A program made the position numbers and the translations under genes. A stretch of DNA of 64,000 bases, from NCBI GenBank assembly GCA_018394315.1, contig CP074575.1, forward strand, positions 2,031,501-2,095,500, given 5' to 3'. The notes beneath the pieces were generated by a model, which saw nothing but the letters and a program-made list of their open reading frames with translations, ran no database searches and was not told where the DNA came from. Below, one piece after another: positions 15,496 to 60,824 of the stretch (position 1 is the stretch's first letter; the number at the start of each line of letters is the position of its first letter). The stretch is from Mycoplasmatota bacterium. GTDB lineage: Bacteria > Bacillota_I > Bacilli_A > MAG-NZ.

Positions 15496-16473
15496 TTATC
15501 GAATTTCAAAGTAACCATATACTTGATACTGAGGGTAGTTACCTGGACCGTAATCTTGACCATCTAGAGTTTCTCTTAAAATAGTGGTAGCTATCCTATA
15601 CTCTCCTGCATTCAGTCCATAAGAGTATATGCCAAGATTATATGTTACTTCTACTGTCTCAATTTCTAGGAGTGTAAATCCAATCAGATTAAATGCAGCC
15701 CCTTCAAAATTAATGTCTTTTACGACAGTCTTCCACACTCCATCAACTTTTTTCTCTAATGCGAAATAAAGACCATAAGTGAATTTATCATCTATGTTAT
15801 TTACCAGTTTAGCCGATATTTTTGTAAATTCATTATAGAGTTCCTCTTCTATTTCCATTGTTAATCCATCAATATCGTCATATCTTTGTTCTGAGGTATA
15901 CCAATATTTTTGTTGATTATCTAGACTTATATCGACTTCCCCTTGATCGTTTATACTAAAAGGGATTTTCATATCCTGACTACCCATTCCAAGGTAATCA
16001 GTTAGAATTCTATACTCTCCTTCAGCAATCTCATCGGTGTACTCGAATAAGGAATATCTATAAATTTCTGATTCTCCAGGCTCAATAAAACTAATTACAC
16101 CTGTACTTCCCTTAAAAGTTTCATCTTCTAATGTTCTCCAGGTACCAGTTTCTTTCTTTTGCAATGTGTAATCATCTCCAGGTCCAAGATCACTACTACT
16201 GTTGTTGATCCACATTACATCTATCGCCAATACTCCTTGGTCGTATATGCTATATTCAGAGAATGCACACACAAATATTCCACATTCATTATCGAAGTTA
16301 TATTCTGAAACCTTCTCATCCTTATTCTCCGTGGTGTCTACATTTGATTGTTCATCTGCTTCTCCATTCAATTGGTTGCTTGACTCATCATTATATTGAT
16401 AAGAGTCTTCTTTACATCCAAATAGTATGATACTCGATATCATTACTATAATTACTAAGAATATTTTTTTCAT
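15496..16473 (-). CDS. lipoprotein with two Big_14-type Ig-like domains
   Basis: A 325-residue protein with a type II signal peptide: KKIFLVIIVMISSIILFGC, lipobox LFGC with Cys20. An acidic, Asn/Asp/Glu-rich linker follows, then two related domains of about 120 residues. Each has a tryptophan-containing strand (YTLQKKETGTWRTL; FALEKKVDGVWKTV), a hydrophobic segment and a closing GEYRI motif (EIAEGEYRI; GLNAGEYRI). This resembles the Ig-like domain found in many clostridial and bacillar lipoproteins. It is presumed anchored outside the membrane; binding partner unknown. It is the only gene between tRNA-Pro and the tRNA-Pro 3'-end copy, so it could be the cargo of a small insertion. Confidence 0.75.
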   Translation of the reverse strand: MKKIFLVIIVMISSIILFGCKEDSYQYNDESSNQLNGEADEQSNVDTTENKDEKVSEYNFDNECGIFVCAFSEYSIYDQGVLAIDVMWINNSSSDLGPGDDYTLQKKETGTWRTLEDETFKGSTGVISFIEPGESEIYRYSLFEYTDEIAEGEYRILTDYLGMGSQDMKIPFSINDQGEVDISLDNQQKYWYTSEQRYDDIDGLTMEIEEELYNEFTKISAKLVNNIDDKFTYGLYFALEKKVDGVWKTVVKDINFEGAAFNLIGFTLLEIETVEVTYNLGIYSYGLNAGEYRIATTILRETLDGQDYGPGNYPQYQVYGYFEIR

Positions 16474-17167: not shown

Positions 17168-20100
17168 TTAAAACTTACGCTTTTCTTTTATTCTTATTAC
17201 AAATAATTCAATAACTAATACTACTAAAACAATTGGGATCGTCCAGATAATATATCTCTTGAAGTCTATCTTTGAATTATCCTCAAACGGAGTAACATCT
17301 ACGATAATTTCACCATCACTATTAATAACAACGAAATCATCTTTACTCTCCTCTACAATGCCCCCACTCTCAATCTTATAAACTAGTTCCGTTGTAAACT
17401 CATAGTCTTTGCCATCAGGAACTATTACATAGTCAACAGAGAGTTCATTTATTACTAGAGTTTTCTCTTCATAAGCATTGACTGGAATAATTAATGGCAT
17501 AGATTCAGTTTCATGCTTTTCACGGTAATGAACAGTCATTTCCTTTACGTCTGGTCTATCTCTTAAATCAAATATAACTAAAACTACTTCTTCTTCCTCA
17601 TGGACTTCCTTTTGGAACTTGACAATGTCAGTTTTAAGTACTTTATTTTCCTCGATAGCTCTATCTCTTTCTATCTCTTCTTTTAGAATATCATCATTAG
17701 AAACAATAGTAACTTCTTCTTCTTGGACGTTGATTAAGTCTTCTAAGAAATCATCACATGGAAGTTCTTCTGAAGTAAATATCCCATATTCTTGTGTTGA
17801 ATTAATCAGCATTACATGTACATACATATCTGGAGAATCAATTGATAGATATAGCTCTTTATCAAATTCGGACCAATTAGAGTTAAAATGATCTGCAAAC
17901 TTGCTATTTGAGATTGAATATTTCATTACGGTACTTTGATCATTCAGTAGCCCAGATTCAATTTCTAATTCAATCGGATCAAAATCTTCAACATAGATCA
18001 TAATCGTTCTATTAGGTGACTCAATTACATTAATAATTCTCTCAGCAGTTGCCGTATTACCTGATGAATCCGAGATTGTATAAGTTAAAACGTGTCTACC
18101 TACGTTCTTTGTATCAGCTGTCTCAGATATCCTTAAACTTTCATACAAGAATAGGTCATCGTAGTTATCACTTAATACATAACCAGGTTCATTATAAATA
18201 GAATTCACATAGAGATCAATTTCCGTACTTCCTAGAAGTGTAATTTCAGGAGAAGTAGAATCTACCACTTCTATAGTTCTAGTTGCTTCAACTTTTCCAA
18301 ATACACCTGCATAAGAATACACTAATTCATAAAATCCTATTTTGTTAGTATTTACTGAACCAATAATGTCTACTTGACTTGTTAGAATGGTACTTCCATA
18401 GCTTGCGGTATAACCAATTTCCTCATAGTTATTACCAACTTCAACCATTACTACAGATTCTCCAAGTAAATCCAGCTCCAGTTTCTTTTTAGAGCTTGAT
18501 GAACTACTTGATGATCCTGATTCTTCAACTGGTGGGTTCTCAGGAACTGATTCAACAATGAAGTTAGCTTTCAAAGTTACATCATGACTACTCATTAAGA
18601 AGTCACTTAAGTCTTGCAGATAAGTACTTCTTCCAGAGTCATAACTCCATCCAGAGAATATATATCCGGGTTTTTCTACAAGTGGAATTAATCCTGAATC
18701 TACATATGTGTTATAGACAACTAATCCGCTACTAATGAATGCATCATCATAATCAATAAATGTTAGCGTAAGTTCCATAATTTCATATTCTGCAGTCAAA
18801 GTAACATCATAATTTGGCATTATAAAGTCGCTTAGGTCAGGTAAATATGTTAGTCCACTATTTATCCATCCAGTTAAGCTGTACCCGACTCTCGTAGGAT
18901 TCTCAGGTGTTGGTGTAGTATTATAAGCTACTAAACCGCTACTTACAAACGTATCATCAAAGTCATTATATGTTAGTGTATTTGTATTAGCTGTATACAC
19001 TGCTACCATATCCACATCTGTTGTTGCCATTGTATAGTCATTCAAATCAGTTGCGTATACTGTTGTTCCACCATCAGGTGTCCATCCTGTATGAGTATAA
19101 CCAGCGATACTTGCTGATGCAGGTGGTGTTAATGTTGTTCCTAATGTATCTGTATCTACTAAACCTGATGAAATAAAAGTCGTTCCATCTTGTTCATAAT
19201 GAGTTAGTGTATTTGTATTAGCTGTATATACTGCTACCATATCTACATCTGTTGTAGCCATTGTATAGTCATTCAAGTTAACCGCATATACAGTAGTTCC
19301 ACCATCAGGTGTCCATCCTGTATGAGTATAACCTGCGATACTTGTTGGTACAGGTGGTGTTAACGTTGTTCCTAATGTATCCGTATCTACTAAACTTGAT
19401 GAAACAGAAGTTGTTCCATCTTGTTCATAATAAGTTAGTGTATTTGTATTAGCTGTATACACTGCTACCATATCTACATCTGTTGTAGCCATTGTATAGT
19501 CATTTAAGTTAACCGCATATACAGTAGTCCCACCATCAGGTGTCCATCCTGTTTGTGTATAACCTGCGATACTTGCTGGTACAGGTGGTGTTAACGTTGT
19601 TCCTAATGTGTCCGTATCTACTAAACTTGATGAAACAAAAGTTGTTCCATCTTGTTCATAATAAGTTAGTGTATTTGTATTAGCTGTATACACTGCTACC
19701 ATATCTACATCTGTTGTAGCCATTGTATAATCATTTAAATCAGTTAAATATACAGTAGTCCCACCATCCGGTGTCCATCCTGTATGTGTATAACCTGCGA
19801 TTGAAGCGGGTACAGGTGGTGTTAATGTTGTTCCTAAAGTATCTGTATCTACTGAACTAGATGAAATAAAAGTTGTTCCATCTTGTTCATAATAAGTTAG
19901 TGTATTTGTATTAACTGTATACACTGCTACCATATCCACATCTGTTGTAGCCATTGTATAATCATTTAAGTTAACCGCATATACAGTAGTCCCACCATCA
20001 GGTGTCCATCCTGTTTGTGTATAACCTGCGATACTTGCTGGTACAGGTGGTGTTAACGTTGTTCCTAAAGTATCTGTATCTACTAAACCTGATGAAATAA

Positions 20101-23100
20101 AAGTTGTTCCATCTTGTTCATAATAAGTTAGTGTATTTGTATTAGCTGTATACACTGCTACCATATCTACATCTGTTGTAGCCATTGTATAGTCATTTAA
20201 GTTAACCGCATATACAGTTGTTCCACCATCAGGTGTCCATCCTGTATGTGTATAACCTGCTATTGAAGCTGGTGCAGGTGGTGTTAACGTTGTTCCTAAT
20301 GTATCTGTATCTACTGAACTAGATGAAATAAAAGTTGTTCCATCTTGTTCATAATAAGTTAATGTATATGTATTAGCTGTATATACCGCTACCATATCTA
20401 CATCTGTTGTAGCCATTGTATAGTCATTTAAGTTAACCGCATATACAGTAGTCCCACCATCCGGTGTCCATCCTGTATGTGTATAACCTGCGATTGAAGC
20501 GGGTGCAGGTGGTGTTAACGTTGTTCCTAATGTATCTGTATCAACTAAACCTGATGAAACAAAAGTCGTTCCATCTTGTTCATAATAAGTTAATGTATTT
20601 GTATTTGCTGTATATATCGCAGTTAAGTTTACATTATTTGGTGCCATTGTATAGTCATTCAAATCAGTAGAATATACAGTTGATCCACCATCAGGTGTCC
20701 ATCCTGTATGTGTATAACCTGCTATTGAAGCTGGTGCAGGTGGTGTTAACGTTGTTCCTAATGTATCCGTATCTACTAAACCTGATGAAACGAATGTTAT
20801 TCCGTCTTGTTCATAATAAGTTAAAGTGTACGTATTAGCTGTATATACCGCAGTTAAGTTTACATTATTTGGTGGCATCACAAAATCATTAAGATCAGAT
20901 GCGTAAACTGTAGTTCCTCCATCTGGTGTCCATCCCGTATGTGTGTAACCGGTAATAATTGCAGGAGTTGCTGGTATTAAACTACTTCCTAATATGTCTG
21001 TTGCGACTGATTTACTTGATATTATTGTTGTTCCATCTTGTTCATAGTAAGTTAATGTATATGTATTTGCTGTATATATCGCAGTTAAGTTTACATTATT
21101 TGGTGCCATTGTATAATCATTAAGATCAGATGCGTAAACTGTAGTCCCACCATCCGGTGTCCATCCTGTATGTGTATAACCTGCGATTGAAGCGGGTGCA
21201 GGTGGTGTTAACGTTGTTCCTAATGTATCTGTATCAACTAAACCTGATGAAACAAAAGTCGTTCCATCTTGTTCATAGTAAGTTAATGTATTTGTATTTG
21301 CTGTATATATCGCAGTTAAGTTTACATTATTTGGTGCCATTGTATAGTCATTCAAATCAGTTGAATATACAGTAGTTCCACCATCCGGTGTCCACCCTGT
21401 ATGTGTGTAACCTGCTATTGAAGCTGGTGCAGGTGGTGTTAATGTTGTTCCTAAAGTATCTGTATCTACTAAACCTGATGAAACGAATGTTGTTCCATCT
21501 TGTTCATAATAACTTAAAGTGTACGTATTAGCTGTATATACCGCAGTTAAGTTTACATTGTTTGGTGCCATAGTAAAACCATTAAGATCAGATGCGTAAA
21601 CAGTAGTTCCTCCATCTGGTGTCCATCCTGTATGAGTATAACCTGTAATAATTGCAGGAGTTGCAGGTATTAAACTACTTCCTAATGTGTCTGTTGCGAC
21701 TGATTTACTTGATATTATTGTTGTTCCATCTTCTTCATAATAAGTTAATGTATTTGCATTCGCTGTATACACTGCTACCATATCTACATCTGTTGTAGCC
21801 ATTGTATAGTCATTTAAGTTAACCGCATATACAGTTGTTCCACCATCAGGTGTCCATCCTGTATGTGTATAACCTGCTATTGAAGCTGGAACAGGTGGTG
21901 TTAATGTTGTTCCTAATGTATCTGTAACTACTAAACCTGATGAAACGAATGTTGTTCCATCTTGTTCATAGTAAGTTAATGTATATGTATTTGCTGTATA
22001 TATCGCAGTTAAGTTTACATTATTTGGTGCCATTGTATAGTCATTCAAATCAGTAGAATATACAGTTGATCCACCATCAGGTGTCCATCCTGTATGAGTA
22101 TATCCTGCAATTGAAGCTGGTACAGGTGGTGCTAATGTTGTTCCTAATGTATCTGTATCTACTAAACTTGATGAAACGAAGGTTATTCCGTCTTGTTCAT
22201 AATAACTTAAAGTGTACGTATTAGCTGTATATACCGCAGTTAAGTTTACATTATTTGGTGCCATAGTAAAATCACTAAGATCAGATGCGTAAACTGTAGT
22301 TCCTCCATCTGGTGTCCATCCTGTATGTGTGTAACCTGTAATAATTGCAGGAGTTGCAGGTATTAAACTACTTCCTGATGTGTCTGTTGCGACTAAGCTA
22401 AATGAGAATGCTGTTATTCCGTCTTGCTGATAGTAAGTTAATGTATATGTATTAGCTGTATATACCGCTACCATATCTACATCTGTTGTAGCCATTGTAT
22501 AATCATTCAAATCAGTTGAATATACAGTAGTCCCACCATCCGGTGTCCATCCTGTATGTGTATAACCTGCGATTGAAGCGGGTGCAGGTGGTGTTAACGT
22601 TGTTCCTAATGTATCTGTATCAACTAAACCTGATGAAATAAAAGTCGTTCCATCTTGTTCATAATAAGTTAATGTATTTGTATTTGCTGTATATATCGAA
22701 GTTAAGTTTACATTATTTGGTGCCATTGTATAATCATTCAAATCAGTAGAATATACAGTTGATCCACCATCAGGTGTCCATCCTGTATGTGTATAACCCG
22801 CTATTGAAGCGGGTGCAGGTGGTGTTAATGTTGTTCCTGCTGTATCTGTATCTACTAAACCTGATGAAACGAAGGTTATTCCGTCTTGTTCATAATAAGT
22901 TAAAGTGTACGTATTAGCTGTATATACCGCAGTTAAGTTTACATTATTTGGTGCCATAGTAAAATCATTAAGATCAGATGCGTAAACTGTAGTTCCTCCA
23001 TCTGGTGTCCATCCCGTATGTGTGTAACCGGTAATAATTGCAGGAGTTGCAGGTATTAAACTACTTCCTGATGTGTCTGTTGCGACTAAGCTAAATGAGA

Positions 23101-26100
23101 ATGCTGTTATTCCATCTTGCTGATAGTAAGTCAATGTATATGTATTTGCTGTATATACCGCTACCATATCCACATCTGTTGTAGCCATTGTGTAATCATT
23201 TAAGTTAACCGCATATACAGTAGACCCACCATCAGGTGTCCATCCTGTATGTGTATAACCTGCTATTGAAGCTGGTACAGGTGGTGTTAATGCTGTTCCT
23301 AATGTATCTGTATCTACTAAACCTGATGAAACAAAAGTCGTTCCATCTTGTTCATAGTAAGTTAATGTATTTGTATTTGCTGTATACACTGCTACCATAT
23401 CTACATCTGTTGTAGCCATTGTATAATCATTCAAATCAGTTGCGTATACAGTACTTCCACCATCAGGTGTCCATCCTGTATGTGTATAACCTGCTATTGA
23501 AGCTGGAACAGGTGGTGTTAATGTTGTTCCTAATGTATCTGTATCTACTAAACCTGATGAAACGAATGTTGTTCCATCTTGTTCATAATAACTTAATGTG
23601 TACGTATTAGCTGTATATACCGCAGTTAAGTTTACATTATTTGGTGCCATAGTAAAATCATTAAGATCAGATGCATAAACTGTAGTTCCTCCATCTGGTG
23701 TCCATCCTGTATGAGTATATCCTGCAATACTTGCTGGTGCAGGTGGTGTTAATGTTGTTCCTAATGTATCTGTTGCGACTAAGCTAAATGAGAATGCTGT
23801 TATTCCGTCTTGCTGATAGTAAGTTAATGTATATGTATTAGCTGTATACACTGCTACCATATCCACATCTGTTGTTGCCATTGTATAATCATTCAAATCA
23901 GTTGCGTATACTGTTGTTCCACCATCAGGTGTCCATCCTGTATGTGTATAACCTGCTATTGAAGCTGGTGCAGGTGGTGTTAACGTTGTTCCTAATGTAT
24001 CCGTATCTACTAAACTTGATGAAACAAAAGTTGTTCCATCTTGTTCATAGTAAGTTAATGTATTTGTATTAGCTGTATACACTGCTACCATATCTACATC
24101 TGTTGTAGCCATTGTATAGTCATTCAAGTTAACCGCATATACAGTAGTCCCACCATCAGGTGTCCACCCTGTATGTGTATAACCAGCGATTAAAGCTGGT
24201 ACAGGTGGTGTTAATGTTGTTCCTAAAGTATCTGTATCTACTAAACCTGATGAAATAAAAGTTGTTCCATCTTGTTCATAGTAAGTTAATGTATTTGTAT
24301 TAGCTGTATACACTGCTACCATATCTACATCTGTTGTAGCCATTGTATAGTCATTCAAGTTAACCGCATATACAGTAGTCCCACCATCAGGTGTCCACCC
24401 TGTATGTGTATAACCAGCGATTAAAGCTGGTACAGGTGGTGTTAATGTTGTTCCTAAAGTATCTGTATCTACTGGAATAGATGAAATAAAAGTTGTTCCA
24501 TCTTGTTCATAGTAAGTTAATGTATTTGTATTAGCTGTATACACTGCTACCATATCCACATCTGTTGTTGCCATTGTATAGTCATTCAAATCAGTTGCGT
24601 ATACTGTTGTTCCACCATCAGGTGTCCATCCTGTATGTGTATAACCTGCTATTGAAGCTGGTGCAGGTGGTGTTAACGTTGTTCCTAAAGTATCTGTATC
24701 TACTGGAATAGATGAAATAAAAGTTGTTCCATCTTGTTCATAATAAGTTAGTGTATTTGTATTAGCTGTATACACTGCTACCATATCTACATCTGTTGTA
24801 GCCATTGTATAGTCATTTAAGTTAACCGCATATACAGTAGTCCCACCATCAGGTGTCCATCCTGTATGAGTATAACCAGCGATTAAAGCTGGTACAGGTG
24901 GTGTTAATGTTGTTCCTAATGTATCCGTATCAACTAAACCTGATGAAACAAAAGTTGTTCCATCTTGTTCATAGTAAGTTAATGTATTTGTATTAGCTGT
25001 ATACACTGCTACCATATCCACATCTGTTGTAGCCATTGTATAATCATTTAAGTTAACCGCATATACAGTTGTTCCACCATCAGGTGTCCATCCCGTATGT
25101 GTATAACCTGCTATTGAAGCTGGTACAGGTGGTGTTAACGTTGTTCCTAATGTGTCCGTATCTACTAAACTTGATGAAACAAAAGTTGTTCCATCTTGTT
25201 CATAATAAGTTAGTGTATTTGTATTCGCTGTATATACTGCTACCATATCTACATCTGTTGTAGCCATTGTATAGTCATTCAAATCAGTTGCGTATACTGT
25301 TGTTCCACCATCAGGTGTCCATCCTGTATGAGTATAACCAGCGATACTTGCTGATGCAGGTGGTGTTAATGTTGTTCCTAATGTATCTGTATCTACTAAA
25401 CCTGATGAAATAAAAGTTGTTCCATCTTGTTCATAATAAGTTAATGTATATGTATTTGCTGTATATATCGCAGTTAAGTTTACATTATTTGGTGCCATTG
25501 TATAGTCATTTAAGTTAACCGCATATACAGTTGTTCCACCATCAGGTGTCCATCCTGTATGTGTATAACCTGCTATTGAAGCTGGTACAGGTGGTGTTAA
25601 TGCTGTTCCTAATGTATCTGTATCTACTAAACCTGATGAAACGAATGTTGTTCCATCTTGTTCATAGTAAGTTAATGTATTTGTATTTGCTGTATACACT
25701 GCTACCATATCTACATCTGTTGTAGCCATTGTATAATCATTCAAATCAGTTGCGTATACAGTACTTCCACCATCAGGTCTCCATCCTGTATGTGTATAAC
25801 CTGCTATTGAAGCTGGTGCAGGTGGTGTTAACGTTGTTCCTAATGTATCCGTATCAACTAAACCTGATGAAACGAATGTTGTTCCATCTTGTTCATAATA
25901 AGTTAATGTATTTGTATTAGCTGTATACACTGCTACCATATCTACATCTGTTGTAGCCATTGTATAGTCATTCAAGTTAACCGCATATACAGTAGTTCCA
26001 CCATCAGGTGTCCATCCTGTATGTGTATAACCTGCTATTGAAGCTGGTGCAGGTGGTGTTAATGTTGTTCCTAATGTATCCGTATCAACTAAACCTGATG

Positions 26101-29100
26101 AAACGAATGTTGTTCCATCTTGTTCATAATAAGTTAATGTATTTGTATTAGCTGTATACACTGCTACCATATCTACATCTGTTGTTGCCATTGTATAGTC
26201 ATTCAAATCAGTTGCGTATACTGTTGTTCCACCATCAGGTGTCCATCCTGTATGAGTATAACCAGCGATACTTGCTGATGCAGGTGGTGTTAATGTTGTT
26301 CCTAATGTATCTGTATCTACTAAACCTGATGAAATAAAAGTCGTTCCATCTTGTTCATAATGAGTTAGTGTATTTGTATTAGCTGTATATACTGCTACCA
26401 TATCTACATCTGTTGTAGCCATTGTATAGTCATTCAAGTTAACCGCATATACAGTAGTTCCACCATCAGGTGTCCATCCTGTATGTGTATAACCTGCTAT
26501 TGAAGCTGGTGCAGGTGGTGTTAACGTTGTTCCTAATGTATCCGTATCTACTAAACCTGATGAAACGAATGTTGTTCCATCTTGTTCATAATAAGTTAAT
26601 GTATTTGTATTAGCTGTATACACTGCTACCATATCTACATCTGTTGTAGCCATTGTATAATCATTTAAGTTAACCGCATATACAGTTGTTCCACCATCAG
26701 GTGTCCATCCTGTATGAGTATAACCAGCGATACTTGCTGGTACAGGTGGTGTTAACGTTGTTCCTAAAGTATCCGTATCAACTAAACCTGATGAAACAAA
26801 AGTCGTTCCATCTTGTTCATAATAAGTTAATGTATTTGTATTTGCTGTATACACTGCTACCATATCTACATCTGTTGTAGCCATTGTATAGTCATTCAAG
26901 TTAACCGCATATACAGTTGTTCCGCCATCAGGTGTCCATCCTGTATGTGTATAACCTGCTATTGAAGCTGGTACAGGTGGTGTTAACGTTGTTCCTAATG
27001 TATCCGTATCAACTAGACCTGATGAAACGAATGTTGTTCCATCTTGTTCATAATAAGTTAATGTATTTGTATTTGCTGTATATACCGCAGTTAATGTAAC
27101 ATTATTTGATGGCATCACAAAATCATTCAAATCTACTGCATAACTTATTGAGCCATCTGTCCATCCTGTAAACGTGTGCCCTTCCTTTGTAGGATTGCTT
27201 GGAAGAAGACTTGGATTACTAAGAAATGTAAAACCTGGTTCAATATATTTAACACTGTTAATTACCTGATCAGATTCAGTATTGTAAGTAATATTATACC
27301 GAGTTGTCGTTCCGAACCATTCAACCTTTTCACCATAATAACTTCCGGTTATGATATCCAAATCTCCATCACTATCAATGTCGGCCGCATATACTGCCAA
27401 TGTTCCACCTGAGTTTGTTGATATCATATTTTGTTCATCTTTTGTGAAAAAACCACCTTTATTTTCATACCATGCGACTTCCTCGTCTTCGAAACTACCA
27501 CCTATTACATCCATATCTCCATCATTATCAACATCGGCTGCATGTACACTCCAAGCTCCATCTGCACCACCAATTGAGTCTATTATAATATGCTCCGTAA
27601 ATAATTGATTACTATTTTCATACCATGCAATCGTATCATCAAGATAACTCGCGCTTAATACATCCATATCTCCATCATTATCGATGTCTACTGCATAGAC
27701 TTCTTGTGCAGAATCAGCAGTATTTGTTATTATTTTCTTTGTAAAGACAAGATTATTATTTTCATACCATGCAATCGTATCATCGTTCTGACCCGCAGAC
27801 AATACATCCATATCACCATCTGAATCTATATCTGCTGCGTATACCGATCGTACTGCGATCGCTGAACTATCTATTACATTTTTTGAATTTAAAATAAAAA
27901 ATCCATTTAAATTCTCATACCAAGCGACTGTGTTATCACCCTGACTGGCGGACAATACATCCATGTCGCCATCATTATCCATATCTGCTGCATATACTGA
28001 GTATGTTTCCAATGCTGTTGATGATATTATATTTCTTGAAGAAAATTCAATATATCCTAACGTTTGATTGAATCCAAGGTTTTCGTACCACGAAATTCTG
28101 TTGTCATTCCTACCACCGCTTAATACGTCAATATCACCATCATTATCTATATCTGCTGTATAGACTGAGGTTGCTCCATCAGATAAACCAACTACATGTT
28201 CTGTTAAATTACCTGAACCATCATTTTCATACCATGAGATTGCATCATCACTACCACTCGCGCTTAATACATCAATATCTCCATCATTATCTATATCTGC
28301 CGCGTGTACATCTCGTGTTGACATACCTGATGTAGTTGTAATTTGATGTTTAGTGTAAGATCCTACTTGTACCTCAGCTTTTACTCTAAATTCTGTAACA
28401 TAAGAAAATACTGAACTGGTATCAGCTTTTTTCACTTGATCAGTCACGTATACTCTAATTACTTCTCCTGGTAAAAAATTATTAGTTGGATTTATTGTTA
28501 GAAGTTTATTAAGAGCATCATAGCTACTTGAATAAGTATATTCACTGCTATTTTCGCCTACAATCTTTAATGTTGATTCATTAATAGTGCTTGGATCTAT
28601 TGCCCATGGAAAAGTGATTGATATATCTGCATCATATAAAACACCAATTTCATTTACATCTGGTACAGTTTTATAGGTTGCTGCTCCAAACCAAGCAATC
28701 GTGTTATCAGTCTGCATTGCAGATATTATATCTATATCCCCATCTGAATCCATATCTGATGTATGGATAGATATTGCACCACCTGCAGATGTTGTAATCA
28801 CATTCTGTTCGTCCTGAGTGAAATACCCACCTTTGTTTTCATACCATGCTATCGTATTATCTAAAATACTAGCGCTTATTACATCCATATCGCCATCGGA
28901 ATCAAAATCTACAGCTCGAATGTCCCATGCACCATCAGCACCACCATCTACATCGATGATTATATTTTTTTCATCCTGAGTAAAATATCCACCTTTATTT
29001 TCATACCAAAGGATTGAATCGTCGCCTTTACTTGCACTTAGTACATCCATATCACCATCATTGTCTAAATCGGCTGCGTAGACAGATCTTGCACTAATCA

Positions 29101-31543
29101 ATCCTGTCATTATCAAGTTTGGCGATGAAAATTCAGCATAACCCAAAGTATCATTATAACCAAGGTTTTCATGCCATGCGATAGCTTGATCATCATCACT
29201 AGCACTAAGAACATCCATGTCTCCATCGTTGTCTAGATCTGCTGCATAGACATCCCAACGTCCATTTACTGCAGCTGTATCAATAATTATATGTTTCTCA
29301 TCTTTTATAAAATTTCCACCAAGATTCTCATACCAAGCGATTGTATCGTCTTCTCTACTTGCACTTAATACATCCATATCTCCATCATTATCTAAATCCG
29401 CTATATGGATTGATCGCATCCCAAGTGCTCCACCACCTATATCAGTGATTATATGCTCTGTAAATACTTGATTATTATTTTCAAACCAAATTATTGCATC
29501 GTCATATATACTAGAACTTATTACGTCCATATCTCCATCATTATCTAAATCCGCTGCATTTACAGATGTTGGACCATCTGCCCCACCGGCTACATCAGTA
29601 ATTATATGTTCTGTTAAATTTCCTACCCCATCATTTTCATACCATGCTACTGTGTCGTCATCTACACTTGCGCTCAAAACATCCATATCTCCATCGCCAT
29701 CAATATCTACTGTGTATACTGAATAAGCACTCATAGCTGATGAATTTATATTATGTTGAACTAATGGCCCTTCTAATACTTCATTCTTTACAACAAATTC
29801 AGTTGAATATGGAAATACTGAAGTAGTGTCAGCCTTTTTAACTTGATCTGTCACATATACTCTAACTATTTCACCAAATTTATAATCGTTTGTAGGATCT
29901 ATTGTAAGTTCCTTTGTAGAAGCATTATAACTACTTGAATAAGTATATTTACCACTATTTTCTCCAACTATGACTATTGTCGACTCAGTTACTGTTGCGG
30001 GATCTATCGCCCAAGGAAAGGTGATTACTATATCTGTATCGTAATCAACACCGATTTCATTTACATCTGGCGTTGTTTTATAAGTTGTTACTCCATACCA
30101 CGCAATTGTACTGTCTACTGAACTCGCACTTATTACATCTAAATCTCCATCGTCGTCCATATCTGCAGTACAGACAGACATCGCTCCATCCGCTCCACCT
30201 ACTACATCGATGATTACATTTTCTTGAAATACTTGATTATCATTTTCATACCATGCGATTTTATCATCGTAGTTACTCGCACTAATTACATCCATATCTC
30301 CATCATTATCTAAATCTGCTGCATAAACAGAAACAGCACCATCAGCAGTATTTGATATTATATTTTGTTCATCCAGTGTGAATGTTCCACCCTTGTTCTC
30401 ATACCAAGCAACTGTATCATTATTTAAACTCGCGCTTAATATATCCATATCACCATCATTATCTAAATCCGCTGCATACACTGAATAAGGTCCACTTGCT
30501 AAGGTTGTTATTACATTTTGTGCATCCTTTGTAAACGATCCACCGTTGTTTTCATACCACGCTATTGTATTGTCTAGCTCACTCGCACTTATGACATCTA
30601 AATATCCATCATTGTTAATGTCCGTTGCATAGACTGCCCTTACCCCATCTGCTCCACCAGGGATATCTATAATTATATGTTCTATAAATACTTGATTATT
30701 GTTTTCATACCAGACTATTTTATCCTCACTAAGACTCGCACTAAGAACATCCATATCTCCATCATTATCCATATCCGCTGCGTGTACTGTTCTTACTCCA
30801 GTTAAAGAACTAGTTATTACATTTTGCTCATCCTTTGTAAAAAAGCCACCTTTGTTTTCATACCAGGCGACTGTATTATCGACAGAGCTTGCACTAAGTA
30901 CATCCATATCCCCATCATTATCTATATCAGCAGAATATACTGAACGTGGGCCATCTACTCCACCAACTATATCGATAATTATATGTTCTACTACATTTCC
31001 GGAACCATCATTTTCATACCAAGATATCTTATCGCCTGAAAAACTTGCACTAACTACATCAATATCGTTATCATTATCTATATCCACAGCAAATGCTGAA
31101 TATGCTCCATCTGCAGTAGTTGATATTTCGTGTTGTATGAACGTCCCATTTACCGCTTCCGCTTTAACTCTAAACTCAGATACATATGGTATAACTGGTT
31201 CACCACCAGTTTTTTTAACTCTTTCAGTAATGAGAACTTGTATTTTTTCACCAAACTTGAAGTTGTTTACGGGATCAATAGTAAGACTCTTAGTCGGAGC
31301 ATCGTAACTCAAAGTCGTAGAATATTCTCCACTACTTTCTCCTACTATTTTGATATTAGTACTTGTTAATGTAACTTCATCAATATCATAAAGAAATGTT
31401 ACTGTAATATTTGCATTACGCTCAATTCCAATTGTATTTGATCCAGGTGTTATAACATAACCTCCTGAAGCATTCAATACTGTAATCTGAATACCTATAA
31501 CAACTGCTATAGATAATAGTAAGCCTAATATTATTTTTCTCAT
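17168..31543 (-). CDS. giant (4,791 aa) surface protein: FG-GAP propellers plus InlB-type repeat stalk
   Basis: The Sec signal peptide spans about 1-26. The N-terminal third holds three modules, each an Ig-like Big_5-type domain (about 30-127, 484-590, 956-1060) followed by seven FG-GAP/VCBS units of the form DxDNDGDMDVLSAS...IAWYEN (21 units in all). Seven units fit one seven-bladed beta-propeller with Ca2+-binding loops. Then one diverged InlB B-type repeat, 35 near-identical 77-residue units (about 1490-4186) and two more diverged units. A Ser-rich linker, two DUF5011-like Ig domains (about 4360-4515), an acidic region, a C-terminal membrane helix (about 4764-4785) and a KEKRKF tail complete it. 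There is no LPxTG motif, so anchoring is probably by the helix. The start has AAGGGG upstream. Likely an adhesin or long stalk; ligand unknown. Confidence 0.9.
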   Translation of the reverse strand: MRKIILGLLLSIAVVIGIQITVLNASGGYVITPGSNTIGIERNANITVTFLYDIDEVTLTSTNIKIVGESSGEYSTTLSYDAPTKSLTIDPVNNFKFGEKIQVLITERVKKTGGEPVIPYVSEFRVKAEAVNGTFIQHEISTTADGAYSAFAVDIDNDNDIDVVSASFSGDKISWYENDGSGNVVEHIIIDIVGGVDGPRSVYSADIDNDGDMDVLSASSVDNTVAWYENKGGFFTKDEQNVITSSLTGVRTVHAADMDNDGDMDVLSASLSEDKIVWYENNNQVFIEHIIIDIPGGADGVRAVYATDINNDGYLDVISASELDNTIAWYENNGGSFTKDAQNVITTLASGPYSVYAADLDNDGDMDILSASLNNDTVAWYENKGGTFTLDEQNIISNTADGAVSVYAADLDNDGDMDVISASNYDDKIAWYENDNQVFQENVIIDVVGGADGAMSVCTADMDDDGDLDVISASSVDSTIAWYGVTTYKTTPDVNEIGVDYDTDIVITFPWAIDPATVTESTIVIVGENSGKYTYSSSYNASTKELTIDPTNDYKFGEIVRVYVTDQVKKADTTSVFPYSTEFVVKNEVLEGPLVQHNINSSAMSAYSVYTVDIDGDGDMDVLSASVDDDTVAWYENDGVGNLTEHIITDVAGGADGPTSVNAADLDNDGDMDVISSSIYDDAIIWFENNNQVFTEHIITDIGGGALGMRSIHIADLDNDGDMDVLSASREDDTIAWYENLGGNFIKDEKHIIIDTAAVNGRWDVYAADLDNDGDMDVLSASDDDQAIAWHENLGYNDTLGYAEFSSPNLIMTGLISARSVYAADLDNDGDMDVLSASKGDDSILWYENKGGYFTQDEKNIIIDVDGGADGAWDIRAVDFDSDGDMDVISASILDNTIAWYENKGGYFTQDEQNVITTSAGGAISIHTSDMDSDGDIDIISAMQTDNTIAWFGAATYKTVPDVNEIGVLYDADISITFPWAIDPSTINESTLKIVGENSSEYTYSSSYDALNKLLTINPTNNFLPGEVIRVYVTDQVKKADTSSVFSYVTEFRVKAEVQVGSYTKHQITTTSGMSTRDVHAADIDNDGDIDVLSASGSDDAISWYENDGSGNLTEHVVGLSDGATSVYTADIDNDGDIDVLSGGRNDNRISWYENLGFNQTLGYIEFSSRNIISSTALETYSVYAADMDNDGDMDVLSASQGDNTVAWYENLNGFFILNSKNVIDSSAIAVRSVYAADIDSDGDMDVLSAGQNDDTIAWYENNNLVFTKKIITNTADSAQEVYAVDIDNDGDMDVLSASYLDDTIAWYENSNQLFTEHIIIDSIGGADGAWSVHAADVDNDGDMDVIGGSFEDEEVAWYENKGGFFTKDEQNMISTNSGGTLAVYAADIDSDGDLDIITGSYYGEKVEWFGTTTRYNITYNTESDQVINSVKYIEPGFTFLSNPSLLPSNPTKEGHTFTGWTDGSISYAVDLNDFVMPSNNVTLTAVYTANTNTLTYYEQDGTTFVSSGLVDTDTLGTTLTPPVPASIAGYTHTGWTPDGGTTVYAVNLNDYTMATTDVDMVAVYTANTNTLTYYEQDGTTFVSSGLVDTDTLGTTLTPPVPASIAGYTHTGWTPDGGTTVYAVNLNDYTMATTDVDMVAVYTANTNTLTYYEQDGTTFVSSGLVDTDTLGTTLTPPAPASIAGYTHTGWTPDGGTTVYAVNLNDYTMATTDVDMVAVYTANTNTLTHYEQDGTTFISSGLVDTDTLGTTLTPPASASIAGYTHTGWTPDGGTTVYATDLNDYTMATTDVDMVAVYTANTNTLTYYEQDGTTFVSSGLVDTDTLGTTLTPPAPASIAGYTHTGWTPDGGTTVYAVNLNDYTMATTDVDMVAVYTANTNTLTYYEQDGTTFVSSGLVDTDTLGTTLTPPAPASIAGYTHTGWRPDGGSTVYATDLNDYTMATTDVDMVAVYTANTNTLTYYEQDGTTFVSSGLVDTDTLGTALTPPVPASIAGYTHTGWTPDGGTTVYAVNLNDYTMAPNNVNLTAIYTANTYTLTYYEQDGTTFISSGLVDTDTLGTTLTPPASASIAGYTHTGWTPDGGTTVYATDLNDYTMATTDVDMVAVYTANTNTLTYYEQDGTTFVSSSLVDTDTLGTTLTPPVPASIAGYTHTGWTPDGGTTVYAVNLNDYTMATTDVDMVAVYTANTNTLTYYEQDGTTFVSSGLVDTDTLGTTLTPPVPALIAGYTHTGWTPDGGTTVYAVNLNDYTMATTDVDMVAVYTANTNTLTYYEQDGTTFISSIPVDTDTLGTTLTPPAPASIAGYTHTGWTPDGGTTVYATDLNDYTMATTDVDMVAVYTANTNTLTYYEQDGTTFISSIPVDTDTLGTTLTPPVPALIAGYTHTGWTPDGGTTVYAVNLNDYTMATTDVDMVAVYTANTNTLTYYEQDGTTFISSGLVDTDTLGTTLTPPVPALIAGYTHTGWTPDGGTTVYAVNLNDYTMATTDVDMVAVYTANTNTLTYYEQDGTTFVSSSLVDTDTLGTTLTPPAPASIAGYTHTGWTPDGGTTVYATDLNDYTMATTDVDMVAVYTANTYTLTYYQQDGITAFSFSLVATDTLGTTLTPPAPASIAGYTHTGWTPDGGTTVYASDLNDFTMAPNNVNLTAVYTANTYTLSYYEQDGTTFVSSGLVDTDTLGTTLTPPVPASIAGYTHTGWTPDGGSTVYATDLNDYTMATTDVDMVAVYTANTNTLTYYEQDGTTFVSSGLVDTDTLGTALTPPVPASIAGYTHTGWTPDGGSTVYAVNLNDYTMATTDVDMVAVYTANTYTLTYYQQDGITAFSFSLVATDTSGSSLIPATPAIITGYTHTGWTPDGGTTVYASDLNDFTMAPNNVNLTAVYTANTYTLTYYEQDGITFVSSGLVDTDTAGTTLTPPAPASIAGYTHTGWTPDGGSTVYSTDLNDYTMAPNNVNLTSIYTANTNTLTYYEQDGTTFISSGLVDTDTLGTTLTPPAPASIAGYTHTGWTPDGGTTVYSTDLNDYTMATTDVDMVAVYTANTYTLTYYQQDGITAFSFSLVATDTSGSSLIPATPAIITGYTHTGWTPDGGTTVYASDLSDFTMAPNNVNLTAVYTANTYTLSYYEQDGITFVSSSLVDTDTLGTTLAPPVPASIAGYTHTGWTPDGGSTVYSTDLNDYTMAPNNVNLTAIYTANTYTLTYYEQDGTTFVSSGLVVTDTLGTTLTPPVPASIAGYTHTGWTPDGGTTVYAVNLNDYTMATTDVDMVAVYTANANTLTYYEEDGTTIISSKSVATDTLGSSLIPATPAIITGYTHTGWTPDGGTTVYASDLNGFTMAPNNVNLTAVYTANTYTLSYYEQDGTTFVSSGLVDTDTLGTTLTPPAPASIAGYTHTGWTPDGGTTVYSTDLNDYTMAPNNVNLTAIYTANTNTLTYYEQDGTTFVSSGLVDTDTLGTTLTPPAPASIAGYTHTGWTPDGGTTVYASDLNDYTMAPNNVNLTAIYTANTYTLTYYEQDGTTIISSKSVATDILGSSLIPATPAIITGYTHTGWTPDGGTTVYASDLNDFVMPPNNVNLTAVYTANTYTLTYYEQDGITFVSSGLVDTDTLGTTLTPPAPASIAGYTHTGWTPDGGSTVYSTDLNDYTMAPNNVNLTAIYTANTNTLTYYEQDGTTFVSSGLVDTDTLGTTLTPPAPASIAGYTHTGWTPDGGTTVYAVNLNDYTMATTDVDMVAVYTANTYTLTYYEQDGTTFISSSSVDTDTLGTTLTPPAPASIAGYTHTGWTPDGGTTVYAVNLNDYTMATTDVDMVAVYTANTNTLTYYEQDGTTFISSGLVDTDTLGTTLTPPVPASIAGYTQTGWTPDGGTTVYAVNLNDYTMATTDVDMVAVYTVNTNTLTYYEQDGTTFISSSSVDTDTLGTTLTPPVPASIAGYTHTGWTPDGGTTVYLTDLNDYTMATTDVDMVAVYTANTNTLTYYEQDGTTFVSSSLVDTDTLGTTLTPPVPASIAGYTQTGWTPDGGTTVYAVNLNDYTMATTDVDMVAVYTANTNTLTYYEQDGTTSVSSSLVDTDTLGTTLTPPVPTSIAGYTHTGWTPDGGTTVYAVNLNDYTMATTDVDMVAVYTANTNTLTHYEQDGTTFISSGLVDTDTLGTTLTPPASASIAGYTHTGWTPDGGTTVYATDLNDYTMATTDVDMVAVYTANTNTLTYNDFDDTFVSSGLVAYNTTPTPENPTRVGYSLTGWINSGLTYLPDLSDFIMPNYDVTLTAEYEIMELTLTFIDYDDAFISSGLVVYNTYVDSGLIPLVEKPGYIFSGWSYDSGRSTYLQDLSDFLMSSHDVTLKANFIVESVPENPPVEESGSSSSSSSSKKKLELDLLGESVVMVEVGNNYEEIGYTASYGSTILTSQVDIIGSVNTNKIGFYELVYSYAGVFGKVEATRTIEVVDSTSPEITLLGSTEIDLYVNSIYNEPGYVLSDNYDDLFLYESLRISETADTKNVGRHVLTYTISDSSGNTATAERIINVIESPNRTIMIYVEDFDPIELEIESGLLNDQSTVMKYSISNSKFADHFNSNWSEFDKELYLSIDSPDMYVHVMLINSTQEYGIFTSEELPCDDFLEDLINVQEEEVTIVSNDDILKEEIERDRAIEENKVLKTDIVKFQKEVHEEEEVVLVIFDLRDRPDVKEMTVHYREKHETESMPLIIPVNAYEEKTLVINELSVDYVIVPDGKDYEFTTELVYKIESGGIVEESKDDFVVINSDGEIIVDVTPFEDNSKIDFKRYIIWTIPIVLVVLVIELFVIRIKEKRKF
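18984..27070 (-). repeat. 35 x 231-bp tandem coding repeat array
   Basis: Thirty-five in-frame units of 231 bp (77 codons) encode a Listeria-Bacteroides (InlB B-type) repeat. Typical segments are TLTYYEQDGTTFVSSGLVDT, SIAGYTHTGWTPDGGTTVYA and a tail of either ATTDVDMVAVYTAN or APNNVNLTAVYTAN. Units differ at a limited set of positions, both at DNA and protein level, which points to recent duplication and gene conversion. Units 18, 21, 24 and 27 share the SSLIPATPAIITGY variant, giving a 693-bp higher-order period. The array is a likely place for length variation and misassembly. Confidence 0.93.
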
Positions 31544-32678: not shown

Positions 32679-33962
32679 TTATTGGTCCTGTTCAAAGTAA
32701 GGTACTACTTCTCCCTTAATACCTGTATGATATTCGCTAATCAGTCTAACCAATAACCCATTTAAATACTCAACTACTGTTTCACCAACTGTAGCTTCAA
32801 GATGATCTTCACCAATTCCAGAATGGTTTGTCAAGAATACATAAGTGCCTCCTGTCATCATTGCTTCGTTTCTAAGCAAATATTCAGTATGCTTATCAAT
32901 GCCACTAGATGCTACTGGTATTAGTCTGATACCCATTGATGCAGCTTTATATATTGAACTATAATATCTGCTCATGTCCTCTTGAGTTTCATGTGGGGGT
33001 GCATCCAAAACATGGAATAAGAGTTTTGTTGTGTTTTCTTCACTCCAAGCTTTCATCATCGCTTCATCAAGAGCAATATCAACAGCTTCTTCAAAATCTC
33101 CTCCTCCTTGAGAAGATTGTGCACGCAGATTTTTCTTTTGATCTAAAATATCTGTTGTAAAATCAAAATATCTAGTCAGGTAACTATCACCAACGTCACG
33201 GTAGAATAGAAGTGCTAATTTAATCGTTAAGTTAGGATTGTCGTCTGTATGAGAAGTAATAACAGAGTCAATTTCAGTTTTTAAATACTCTAATTCATCA
33301 CTCATCGATCCAGTAGTGTCAATCACGAACATAATCTCGATAACGTCTTTGTGGGAGTCATCTTCACTTATCTCGAATGTTAGATGATTATTCTCAATAG
33401 AATATCTATACTCTTCATTTAAGATTACATCATTGTACGATATTGAAATAGAAGCGATATCTGCCAATTGATCACTCTTTGGGAAAAGGTATGCATTACC
33501 AAAAGCATCACTCTGTGCTGTATAGATTACATTTTGACTCTCATCATGTAGTTCGACAGTAGCGCCATATAGATTTTCCTCAGTATTCGAAATTTGCACA
33601 CTAATCATATTGGTTGTATCAAAATATCCCTTATTTAAAAACTTACTGAAGATACCATCTTGACTTTCTTGCGAACTCTCGAAGAGTGATAAGTAAAAAT
33701 CATAATTTGATATGTCACTCCACTCGCTTGCTGTTAGTTGTCCTGCCTGAGGTGTAACATTAATGCTTCCCTCTTCACCATCCTTACTAGTGAGAACAGC
33801 GTCATCAGTCGACGTATATTCTCCCGATACTGGAACTTCAACTATTTTTTCAACTGCAACTTCTTTTTCAACTTCTACTTCTTTTTCAACTTCTACTTCT
33901 TTAGAACAAGCTGAAAATATAAATGACATCATAATTAACATAATAAATAAAAGTCTTTTCAT
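32679..33962 (-). CDS. lipoprotein with von Willebrand factor A domain
   Basis: A 427-residue protein. KRLLFIMLIMMSFIFSAC is a type II signal peptide with lipobox FSAC (Cys19). It is followed by a charged alternating stretch of KEVEVE-type repeats ending VEVPVSGEYT, which may form a rigid stem. A small beta domain (about 110-190) resembles carboxypeptidase-regulatory folds. The VWA domain starts near 205 with MFVIDTTGSMSDE, the intact MIDAS motif DxTGSMS, so metal-dependent ligand binding is expected. The C-terminal part contains HVLDAPPHETQED and YVFLTNHSGIGEDHLEAT, familiar from VWA proteins of Bacillota. Ligand unknown; it may act with the neighbouring surface proteins. Confidence 0.85.
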   Translation of the reverse strand: MKRLLFIMLIMMSFIFSACSKEVEVEKEVEVEKEVAVEKIVEVPVSGEYTSTDDAVLTSKDGEEGSINVTPQAGQLTASEWSDISNYDFYLSLFESSQESQDGIFSKFLNKGYFDTTNMISVQISNTEENLYGATVELHDESQNVIYTAQSDAFGNAYLFPKSDQLADIASISISYNDVILNEEYRYSIENNHLTFEISEDDSHKDVIEIMFVIDTTGSMSDELEYLKTEIDSVITSHTDDNPNLTIKLALLFYRDVGDSYLTRYFDFTTDILDQKKNLRAQSSQGGGDFEEAVDIALDEAMMKAWSEENTTKLLFHVLDAPPHETQEDMSRYYSSIYKAASMGIRLIPVASSGIDKHTEYLLRNEAMMTGGTYVFLTNHSGIGEDHLEATVGETVVEYLNGLLVRLISEYHTGIKGEVVPYFEQDQ

Positions 33963-57605: not shown

Positions 57606-57620
57606 AGAGTTATCTTTTTA
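57594..57620. terminator. terminator overlapping the azoreductase stop
   Basis: AAGATAACT (57594-57602) pairs with AGTTATCTT (57608-57616), loop TGAAG holding the TGA stop, followed by T-rich sequence. Can also serve the convergent repeat-protein gene. Confidence 0.88.
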
Positions 57621-60600
57621 ATTAAATAAACCCTTTAACCATAAAACAAGCTTATTGAACATAGATAATTCTAAGCTTGATGTTAAAGGTACATCGCTAA
57701 ACAAGTTATTAACAAGTGATTTATTTTCGTATTGGAAGTCAAATGAATATTCTTTACCATCCTTCATAAAAACAATCTTTTGTAAATCTACATTTTGTTC
57801 CTTTATTATGATTTCAATCCAATTCGGTGAAAAATCAAAGATTGTCTTCTTATCATAAGTAATATCAATGTTATCAGCTGAATAGAAACTATCATTCACA
57901 TAGATATAATCTAACTCATAATCAAAATCTCCCGTGAATCTAATCTTAACTTTGGTCTTATCATCCATTGAGACAATAGTATACTTCTTTAGTTGAGGCA
58001 AATCAAACTTAAGTTTTTCATAATCTTCTATGATTTCAAATACTGGTTTAACAATCAAGTCACTATTGATACTGGATAAGTCTTTATCCCATCCAAAAAT
58101 CTTATAACCAGCTCTTTCAATTATTGGAGGATTAATTAAGTTAGAAGATGTAACAGTATCTGTTCTAATAACTTTATTATTGATGTCTAAAAATTTGACT
58201 GTATAACTATGTGAATCAAATATTGCATAAATGCTTAAGTCACTTGTTATATCTACTAAAGATTCACTCCATCCTAAAAAATTATGTCCCTCTTTACTAA
58301 CATTAGGAGCAATAATAGTCTCACCATGATTAACTACTTTTTCACTGATTATAGTGTCATCCAAATAAAATGAAACATGATAACACATTCTTTCATATAT
58401 GGGATTCACAACCAAATTTGAGGAAATGTCAGTAAGTGATTGATCCCAACCTATAAAGTTATAACCTATAACTACGGGAGCATCGTATTGAATATCACTT
58501 GATTCAGTAACTTGAAAACGTTCAAGTAGATTTCCATGTATATCAAAGAAAAGAACATTATAGATGATATCATCGTTAATTTCTTCATCTATTACTATAT
58601 CAACTACAACTTCATCAACTACAACTTCAGAATCATCTTCTGATGGTTCATCGTTACTATTAGTAGGATCACTTATTTTTTTATAAACAGCATAAATTTG
58701 TCGATCCTCTAGCACTTCTAAATAATCACCATCCCACTTAACAAATTCATAACCATTAACTGTAGGTGGTATAGGTGGGATAGCATCACCATTATCATTC
58801 ACAATAAATTCATCTATAATTTTTCCTTCAAACCCATAAAAAATAACTGTATGTATTTTCTCATCGAATTGAGCAATAATTGTCACATCGGACGTAATGT
58901 TATCGTAAGTATCACTCCAAGAAGTAAAACTTGCATCCTCTTTTCTTGCTATTGGTGGAGAGGCACTTTCTCCATAATAAACCTCTTCAACTTTTAATAT
59001 CTTAAAATCATAGTTCATAAAGGTGACAGTATATTTATTTTTCTCATAAACTGCATGAACATCTGTATCATTTACAATATTTTGATAGTTACTACTCCAA
59101 TTCAAAAAGATATAACCTTCAACATTTATCGTTTCTGGTAATAAAGCATCCTTATTGTAATCAACAGTCACCGTTGATACAAGTTCCTCAAAGCAGTAAA
59201 AATTGACACTAAACTCTTTTATCTCATATGTTGCGATTACTGTTATGTCAGAAACAACATTACTTATGTCACCACTCCACCCTATAAAATCATACCCTTC
59301 ACGGATAGGATCATCAATCACTAATTCATCGCCATAAGAGACTATATAGCTATCAATTGTAGTTCCATTATAATCCCTCAAATATACATTATATTCATTT
59401 ATTTCATATAATGCATGAATACTTCTATTAGAGTCTATATTTTCATAATCCTCCTCCCAACAAACAAAATGGTATCCTTCAACTATAGGAGGCGTTGGTG
59501 GATTACCACTGTATCCATAATTTATTTCTTCGGAAAGAATAATTCCATCATACCCATAGTAATCAACTGTAAAAGTATTTATACTGTATTCAGCAATTAA
59601 AGTAATATCACTTGAAATATTATTATATTCCCCACTCCACCCTATAAACGAATAGCCTTCTCTAGAAGCAACAGGTGGATTCGCATTAAATCCATGTTCA
59701 ACACTATCGGTTTTAATAGTACTCCCATCGTAGTCTTTGAATGTAACTTGGTATTTATTAATTTCATAGATTGCGTGAATATTTTTATTCCTATAGATAG
59801 AACTATATTCTGAGTCCCACCCAATAAAATGATAACCAGTAATAAGAGGTGCTTCTGGTGGCGTACAACTATACCCATATAAAACATACTCAGTCTTTAT
59901 GAGCTCATTTTCCACAAAGAAATTGACAGTATACTTATTCACAATATACTCAGCTATCAATGTCCTACTTGAATTAATATCTAAATAGCTTCCGCTCCAT
60001 CCAGTAAATGTATAACCTATCCGAGAAGCACTTGGTGGAGAAGCATCATCTCCATAATCAACTTTAACACTTTTTAAAGTAGATCCATCATAATCCTTAA
60101 AGGTAACTGTATATTCTCTAGCCTCATATCTAGCATAAATATCTAAATTTGATATTACATTAGTATAACTCTTGTCCCACCCTATGAATTTTTTACCTGT
60201 AACAACAGGGACTGCTGGAGGAGTTGCATCATAATCGTGATTGACAATCTCACTCTTTATTAAATCATTATAGTAGTCATAAAAATTAACCGTATATGTT
60301 ATCCTTTCGTATTCAGCAAATAAAGTTCTATCAGAATCTATATTGGTAAAATTATTACTCCATCCAATAAAATCATATCCTATTCTGGAAACGCTTGGAG
60401 GATTAGCATTTTCTCCGTGTACCACTGTTTCAGTTTTTAATGTTCTTCCATCATAATCTTTAAAAACTACATTATAATCTCTAACTTCAAACTTAGCATA
60501 AACGTTAAGATTTGAAGTTATATTACTATAGCTTCTATCCCATCCCGTAAATTGATATCCCACTCTACTTGGATTAGTAGGTGTTATAGCTGAATCTCCG

Positions 60601-60824
60601 TCTCTTACATAATCTTGATCATGCAAAACAACACCATTATAAAATTTTACAGTATGGTAAATAAAATGCTCAGAGTAATTATTTGGATTTTGTAAACACA
60701 ATTGATATTGATTTATCCCTAAAGTAGGTAATACAAAGTACTCACAATCACTTACATCGTATGCTCTTGTGGCTTCTTTTGGAATGATAATTAATAAAAT
60801 AATGATTAACAAAACTCTTTTCAT
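57618..60824 (-). CDS. secreted protein with 14 InlB-type repeats
   Basis: A 1,068-residue protein. KRVLLIIILLIIIPKEATRA is a Sec signal peptide. After about 55 unique residues come 14 Listeria-Bacteroides (InlB B-type) repeats of about 68 residues, each ending in a GWxxxYxNI ... YEx block: 11 in a first array, an acidic linker (SNDEPSEDDSE; VVVDEVVVD), then three more. Units 2-11 alternate between a FKDYDGSTLK subtype and an NFY-type subtype. The last 140 residues are unique and beta-rich, and end without a membrane helix or LPxTG. Function unknown; probably an exported adhesive or stalk protein, of the same repeat class as the giant protein at 17-31 kb. Confidence 0.88.
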   Translation of the reverse strand: MKRVLLIIILLIIIPKEATRAYDVSDCEYFVLPTLGINQYQLCLQNPNNYSEHFIYHTVKFYNGVVLHDQDYVRDGDSAITPTNPSRVGYQFTGWDRSYSNITSNLNVYAKFEVRDYNVVFKDYDGRTLKTETVVHGENANPPSVSRIGYDFIGWSNNFTNIDSDRTLFAEYERITYTVNFYDYYNDLIKSEIVNHDYDATPPAVPVVTGKKFIGWDKSYTNVISNLDIYARYEAREYTVTFKDYDGSTLKSVKVDYGDDASPPSASRIGYTFTGWSGSYLDINSSRTLIAEYIVNKYTVNFFVENELIKTEYVLYGYSCTPPEAPLITGYHFIGWDSEYSSIYRNKNIHAIYEINKYQVTFKDYDGSTIKTDSVEHGFNANPPVASREGYSFIGWSGEYNNISSDITLIAEYSINTFTVDYYGYDGIILSEEINYGYSGNPPTPPIVEGYHFVCWEEDYENIDSNRSIHALYEINEYNVYLRDYNGTTIDSYIVSYGDELVIDDPIREGYDFIGWSGDISNVVSDITVIATYEIKEFSVNFYCFEELVSTVTVDYNKDALLPETINVEGYIFLNWSSNYQNIVNDTDVHAVYEKNKYTVTFMNYDFKILKVEEVYYGESASPPIARKEDASFTSWSDTYDNITSDVTIIAQFDEKIHTVIFYGFEGKIIDEFIVNDNGDAIPPIPPTVNGYEFVKWDGDYLEVLEDRQIYAVYKKISDPTNSNDEPSEDDSEVVVDEVVVDIVIDEEINDDIIYNVLFFDIHGNLLERFQVTESSDIQYDAPVVIGYNFIGWDQSLTDISSNLVVNPIYERMCYHVSFYLDDTIISEKVVNHGETIIAPNVSKEGHNFLGWSESLVDITSDLSIYAIFDSHSYTVKFLDINNKVIRTDTVTSSNLINPPIIERAGYKIFGWDKDLSSINSDLIVKPVFEIIEDYEKLKFDLPQLKKYTIVSMDDKTKVKIRFTGDFDYELDYIYVNDSFYSADNIDITYDKKTIFDFSPNWIEIIIKEQNVDLQKIVFMKDGKEYSFDFQYENKSLVNNLFSDVPLTSSLELSMFNKLVLWLKGLFN

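Follow-up and report, generated by a model that had tools for sequence, protein, structure and literature searches.

A giant Mycoplasmatota surface protein with three predicted seven-bladed calcium-blade propellers ahead of a long acidic repeat stalk

Tandem calcium-blade propellers have been reported since 2011. Npun_R4253 of Nostoc punctiforme apparently contains three tandem seven-bladed propellers, built largely from Dx[DN]xDG "calcium blades" (Rigden 2011, PMC3123361). The bacterial integrin-type propellers described in the same year have seven repeats with one Ca2+ motif per repeat, sometimes as two tandem sets of seven, and the sequences retrieved in that study are without a membrane segment (Chouhan 2011, PMC3192720). 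Secreted prokaryotic VCBS proteins that combine a signal sequence with several propellers and Ig-like domains are also described (Pereira and Lupas, PMC8023676). Here we describe a well-formed further example of this general kind. It is encoded in a 64,000-nucleotide stretch of DNA from a Mycoplasmatota bacterium, referred to below as the window.

The window protein likewise has three tandem propellers with a predicted seven blades each. Its likeness to Npun_R4253 is drawn from the published description, whose available text mentions neither a B-repeat stalk nor an alternation with Ig-like domains (PMC3123361). The protein shares PF13517 and the DxDxDG motif in loop AB with the VCBS supercluster, and we found no feature that departs from the available account of that group, apart from the addition of a long acidic B-repeat stalk (PMC8023676). 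It differs from the sequences of Chouhan 2011 in its C-terminal hydrophobic segment and in having three separate sets of blades (PMC3192720). The integrin alpha head is seven-bladed too, and superposes with a Z of about 34 at an identity of about 11%. However, the Ca2+ motif is present in 20 of 21 blades of the window protein and in 3 or 4 of 7 in integrin alpha, and no integrin leg domain was among the Pfam matches of the window protein. Open-licence PMC papers, searched for the exact words "InlB B-repeat" with "FG-GAP" and "Listeria-Bacteroides repeat" with "propeller", yielded none on a propeller paired with a B-repeat stalk. This pairing may perhaps be new.

The gene and its parts, in the order of the protein, are as follows (window positions):
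17168..31543, minus strand: ORF of the giant surface protein, 4791 aa, ATG start, stop included
31463..31543, minus strand: signal-peptide-like N terminus, residues 1 to 27, judged by eye on the translation
31148..31462, minus strand: Ig-like domain 1 (Ig1; Big_5, PF13205, 37.6 bits, cut-off 23.6)
30083..31153, minus strand: propeller 1 (P1), seven blades by motif count and AlphaFold2 model
29765..30091, minus strand: Ig-like domain 2 (Ig2; Big_5, PF13205, 38.7 bits, cut-off 23.6)
28676..29776, minus strand: propeller 2 (P2), seven blades by motif count and AlphaFold2 model
28355..28684, minus strand: Ig-like domain 3 (Ig3; Big_5, PF13205, 34.9 bits, cut-off 23.6; poor AlphaFold2 model)
27305..28366, minus strand: propeller 3 (P3), seven blades by motif count and AlphaFold2 model
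18599..27298, minus strand: stalk of 38 InlB B-type / List_Bact repeats (PF18998, PF09479; outer limits by eye)
18014..18496, minus strand: two Bact_surface_Ig-like domains (PF16403, 90.6 bits, two stretches; outer limits by eye)
17189..17254, minus strand: transmembrane-like segment, then a short basic tail at the C terminus, judged by eye on the translation

The three modules thus alternate as Ig-P-Ig-P-Ig-P, and a short Ser/Lys linker separates the 38 B-type repeats from the two Bact_surface_Ig-like domains. An earlier note, made from the letters of the DNA, had placed the modules at 27310-31460. That interval covers them. With the gene on the minus strand, however, each Ig-like domain precedes its seven blades in the protein. 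A plus-strand ORF of 202 aa (30699-31307) was set aside as a shadow of the blade repeats, and a CHASE4 match (PF05228, 72.5 bits, no single stretch passing) as a repeat artefact. Upstream of the giant gene lies a lipoprotein-like VWA protein gene (32679-33962) with an 18-bp tandem repeat near its start that codes for KEVEVE-type residues. Beyond a three-tRNA cluster on the opposite side lies the gene of a protein of 325 aa (15496-16473) that has two Big_14 Ig-like stretches, and the window encodes another protein with List_Bact repeats, 1068 aa long (57618-60824; PF09479, 187.4 bits).

A motif search of the 4791-aa ORF found 21 Asp-rich motifs, seven per block, at residues 154 to 461, 613 to 930 and 1083 to 1388. 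They are spaced 48 to 56 residues apart within the groups and 152 to 153 between groups. A blade HMM built from the 21 blades gave seven, seven and seven as well, and the DNA repeat finder returned a 103-nt unit 21 times in three groups of seven. The earlier count of 7, 7 and 7 was therefore correct by all three approaches. The exact DxDNDGDMD occurs in 11 of 21 blades, and Dx[DN]xDG fits all except DIDNDN in blade 1 of module 1. The blades match PF13517 (VCBS / FG-GAP_3) at 460.7 bits, against a cut-off of 26.9, in 18 stretches. This score and the Big_5 match on each Ig-like domain indicate that the 7/7/7 pattern is not due to chance. FG-GAP (PF01839) reached 31.6 bits for the entire protein against 22.1, with zero single stretches passing alone.

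We then consider the fold. The AlphaFold2 model of Ig1-P1 had a mean pLDDT of 86.0 on a shallow alignment of 33 rows. The P2-Ig3-P3 model had a pLDDT of 81.8 on 14 rows. Its pTM of 0.49 makes the placement of P2 and P3 relative to each other unreliable, and Ig3 is poorly modelled. After the Ig-like domain, the P1 model has one strand and then seven a-b-c sets separated by six d strands, for a total of 28, and the first strand is positioned to complete the last blade, blade 7. P2 and P3 are also modelled with 28 blade strands each, some of them split in two, and here too blade 7 would be completed by the strand at the N terminus (strand counts made by hand from the DSSP list). The Dx[DN]xDG motif is placed in the A-B loop in 20 of 21 blades. 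In the Ig1-P1 model, for example, the motif at residues 127 to 135 is flanked by strands 120 to 126 and 135 to 140. Up to seven Ca2+ sites per propeller are predicted, which is consistent with this position.

Superposition with VIA-align placed P1 end to end on aldos-2-ulose dehydratase (Z 35.9, rmsd 2.7, 338 residues aligned) and also on integrin alpha IIb (Z 34.5, rmsd 2.6, 330 aligned). P2, over model residues 1 to 368, matched integrin alpha IIb (Z 33.6, rmsd 2.8, 340 aligned). P3, over model residues 472 to 824, matched the EPTP propeller of LGI1, which is seven-bladed (Z 33.8, rmsd 2.4, 316 of 328 aligned), and integrin alpha V (8vs6; Z 33.3, rmsd 2.7, 327 aligned). The dehydratase and integrin propellers are named seven-bladed in the literature (PMC8023676, PMC3192720). 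A phmmer search of the P1 sequence against PDB sequences gave no significant match (best E 0.062), so the fold rests on the models.

Blade number is described as variable in highly repetitive VCBS propellers (PMC9218822), and blocks of seven repeats might be open solenoids or propellers of another blade number. However, each of the three modelled blocks could be laid over a seven-bladed disc along its full length, and close relatives mostly have 7 or 14 blades, which makes such arrangements extremely improbable here. The earlier note had expected three closed seven-bladed discs from structure prediction. A seven-bladed disc was predicted for each block, and the models, their superposition and the 7-or-14 rule in close relatives all agree with closed propellers. 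A simple motif count from raw DNA had foretold fold and blade number well.

The rule itself comes from one scan of genome contigs, which gave 80 related loci, mostly from Bacteroidota and also from Planctomycetota, Electryoneota, Ignavibacteria and others. In the best 25 loci (L011-L035), 41 ORFs had at least three detected blades. When single missed blades were bridged and three arrays cut by a contig end were dropped, 31 of 38 arrays had 7 or 14 blades: 20 had 14, 11 had 7, and the other seven had 3, 5, 5, 8, 9, 9 and 13. The raw arrays of these loci, with no gap filling, gave 27 of 48. Over the entire set (L011-L090), arrays of 7 or 14 blades made up 50 of 128 after gap filling and 37 of 179 in the raw count. 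This wider census counts for little here: the blade HMM derives from the 21 blades of the window protein and misses blades in remoter relatives. Of the Bacteroidota relatives, five were scanned; the protein ends in a Por_Secre_tail in four and in a CHU_C domain in one, both of which are secretion tails. A more distant relative from Litorilinea (L040:5228-11419) has four separate seven-blade sets in one ORF, with spacers between them.

In the host's own class, homologues at E 1e-20 or better were found in 3 of 394 other genomes. One class relative, of 422 aa, has a single propeller of seven blades and, at its C terminus, a hydrophobic segment but no stalk. Another, of 1118 aa, has 14 blades in two sets of seven, B-repeats, a surface Ig-like domain and a C-terminal hydrophobic segment. 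In two class relatives (L101:1095-4451 and L102:1306-5129), the propeller appears by eye to be inserted within a single B-type repeat, with an FDTNGG-like first strand before the blades and the GYxFxGWY half after them.

We next turn to the origin of the three modules. A quick tree of 52 rows, made from 52 of 61 propellers without the 9 of lowest HMM score, groups P1, P2 and P3 in one clade (SH-aLRT 99). They also form one clade in a careful 19-row tree of the window's three propellers and the 16 nearest of 49 relatives (bootstrap 100 / SH-aLRT 99). Therefore, the propellers multiplied within this lineage. The earlier note had proposed triplication of the whole module on the ground that the Ig-like domains are much alike. 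This is the case for Ig2 and Ig3, which are 70.6% identical in amino acids and 72.8% in DNA, but Ig1 is only 46.7 to 47.6% identical to the other two in amino acids. The propellers, by contrast, are equally distant in all pairs (53.8 to 54.2% in amino acids, 62 to 63% in DNA).

A history of two duplications of the entire Ig-plus-propeller unit would account for the single clade and for a slight register among the blades. Blades at the same position in different modules are slightly more alike than blades at different positions (0.549 vs 0.510, permutation p=0.0045), and each of the three module pairs has its best cyclic register at shift 0. However, this register is not clear for the inner blades 2 to 6 (0.574 same-position vs 0.558, p=0.11), and it is not significant at the DNA level on blade cores (p=0.15). 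The distances also disagree, because P2 and P3 are no closer to each other than either is to P1, even though Ig2 and Ig3 are. The careful tree pairs P1 with P2 (95/85) rather than P2 with P3, though the AU test does not reject a P2+P3 constraint (p=0.10). True propeller copies elsewhere retain a sharp register: as a control, two near-copy pairs in L026 and L021 scored 0.72 (L026, at shift 0) and 0.65, against 0.34 to 0.41. The pairs tried from L011, L028 and L040 had no sharp register, like the window's propellers. We therefore consider two whole-unit duplications unlikely, and the proposed triplication is not upheld.

The sequence does not show a single clean triplication, and the blades would appear also to have been exchanged, homogenised or amplified singly. 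Internal blade amplification is described as possible in highly repetitive VCBS propellers (PMC9218822). Against the 49 relative propellers, shift 0 was best in 22 of 147 pairs, which is the chance share and would fit blade turnover one or a few at a time. It seems that blades were replaced individually or several together and not copied as one fixed module. We tentatively raise the possibility that this turnover, together with the mostly 7 or 14 blades to which close relatives return, is a record of disc-closure selection repeatedly resetting blade number.

The stalk is highly regular. It matches PF18998 at 333.4 bits and PF09479 at 138.9 bits, and it contains 38 Trp-containing repeat motifs, spaced exactly 77 aa apart in 34 of 37 intervals. 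TRF reports a 231-bp period over 18963-27085 in 35.2 copies, and 35 of the 38 repeats have a mean pairwise identity of 0.85. The stretch of 2887 residues is very acidic, with 290 Asp and Glu, 8 Lys and Arg, and 668 Thr. We weighed sortase-dependent cell-wall anchoring for the C terminus. Although three transpeptidase domains were matched in the genome, no sortase was, so anchoring by a membrane helix is plausible.

We suggest the following working model. Each VCBS/FG-GAP_3 propeller would be introduced by a Big_5 Ig-like spacer, and the strand ahead of blade 1 would complete blade 7 as a velcro closure. The Dx[DN]xDG loop of nearly every blade is predicted to bind Ca2+ and to stiffen the disc. 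The discs would stand at the outer end, ahead of the long acidic stalk, with the two Ig-like domains and a putative C-terminal membrane helix after it. In this position the propellers are predicted to bind their ligand, a glycan or a protein, at a distance from the cell. Carbohydrate recognition is the role typically tied to VCBS-like propellers, which are linked to protein-protein interactions as well (PMC9218822). The number seven would find its best explanation in the geometry of a closing disc.

The propellers might instead be stiff, Ca2+-locked spacers that lengthen the stalk and are not ligand-binding heads; their blades are all much alike and acidic-rich, and the protein otherwise consists of a long repeat stalk. 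However, the propellers sit at the far N terminus, the 422-aa class relative has its propeller without any stalk, and lectins are among the solved VCBS-family propellers (PMC8023676). A spacer role is therefore quite improbable. We favor, with good confidence, a type I membrane-anchored giant surface protein that carries three Ca2+-stiffened propellers on an acidic stalk and most likely serves as a multivalent adhesin or receptor.

The protein is otherwise ordinary among VCBS surface proteins. Its clean, highly symmetric tandem calcium-blade propellers occur in a class where they are rare, and it is useful for studying how blade number is held at seven during blade exchange. If the tentative reading of blade turnover is true, this lineage would be a natural record of disc-closure selection, on an unusually long and acidic stalk.
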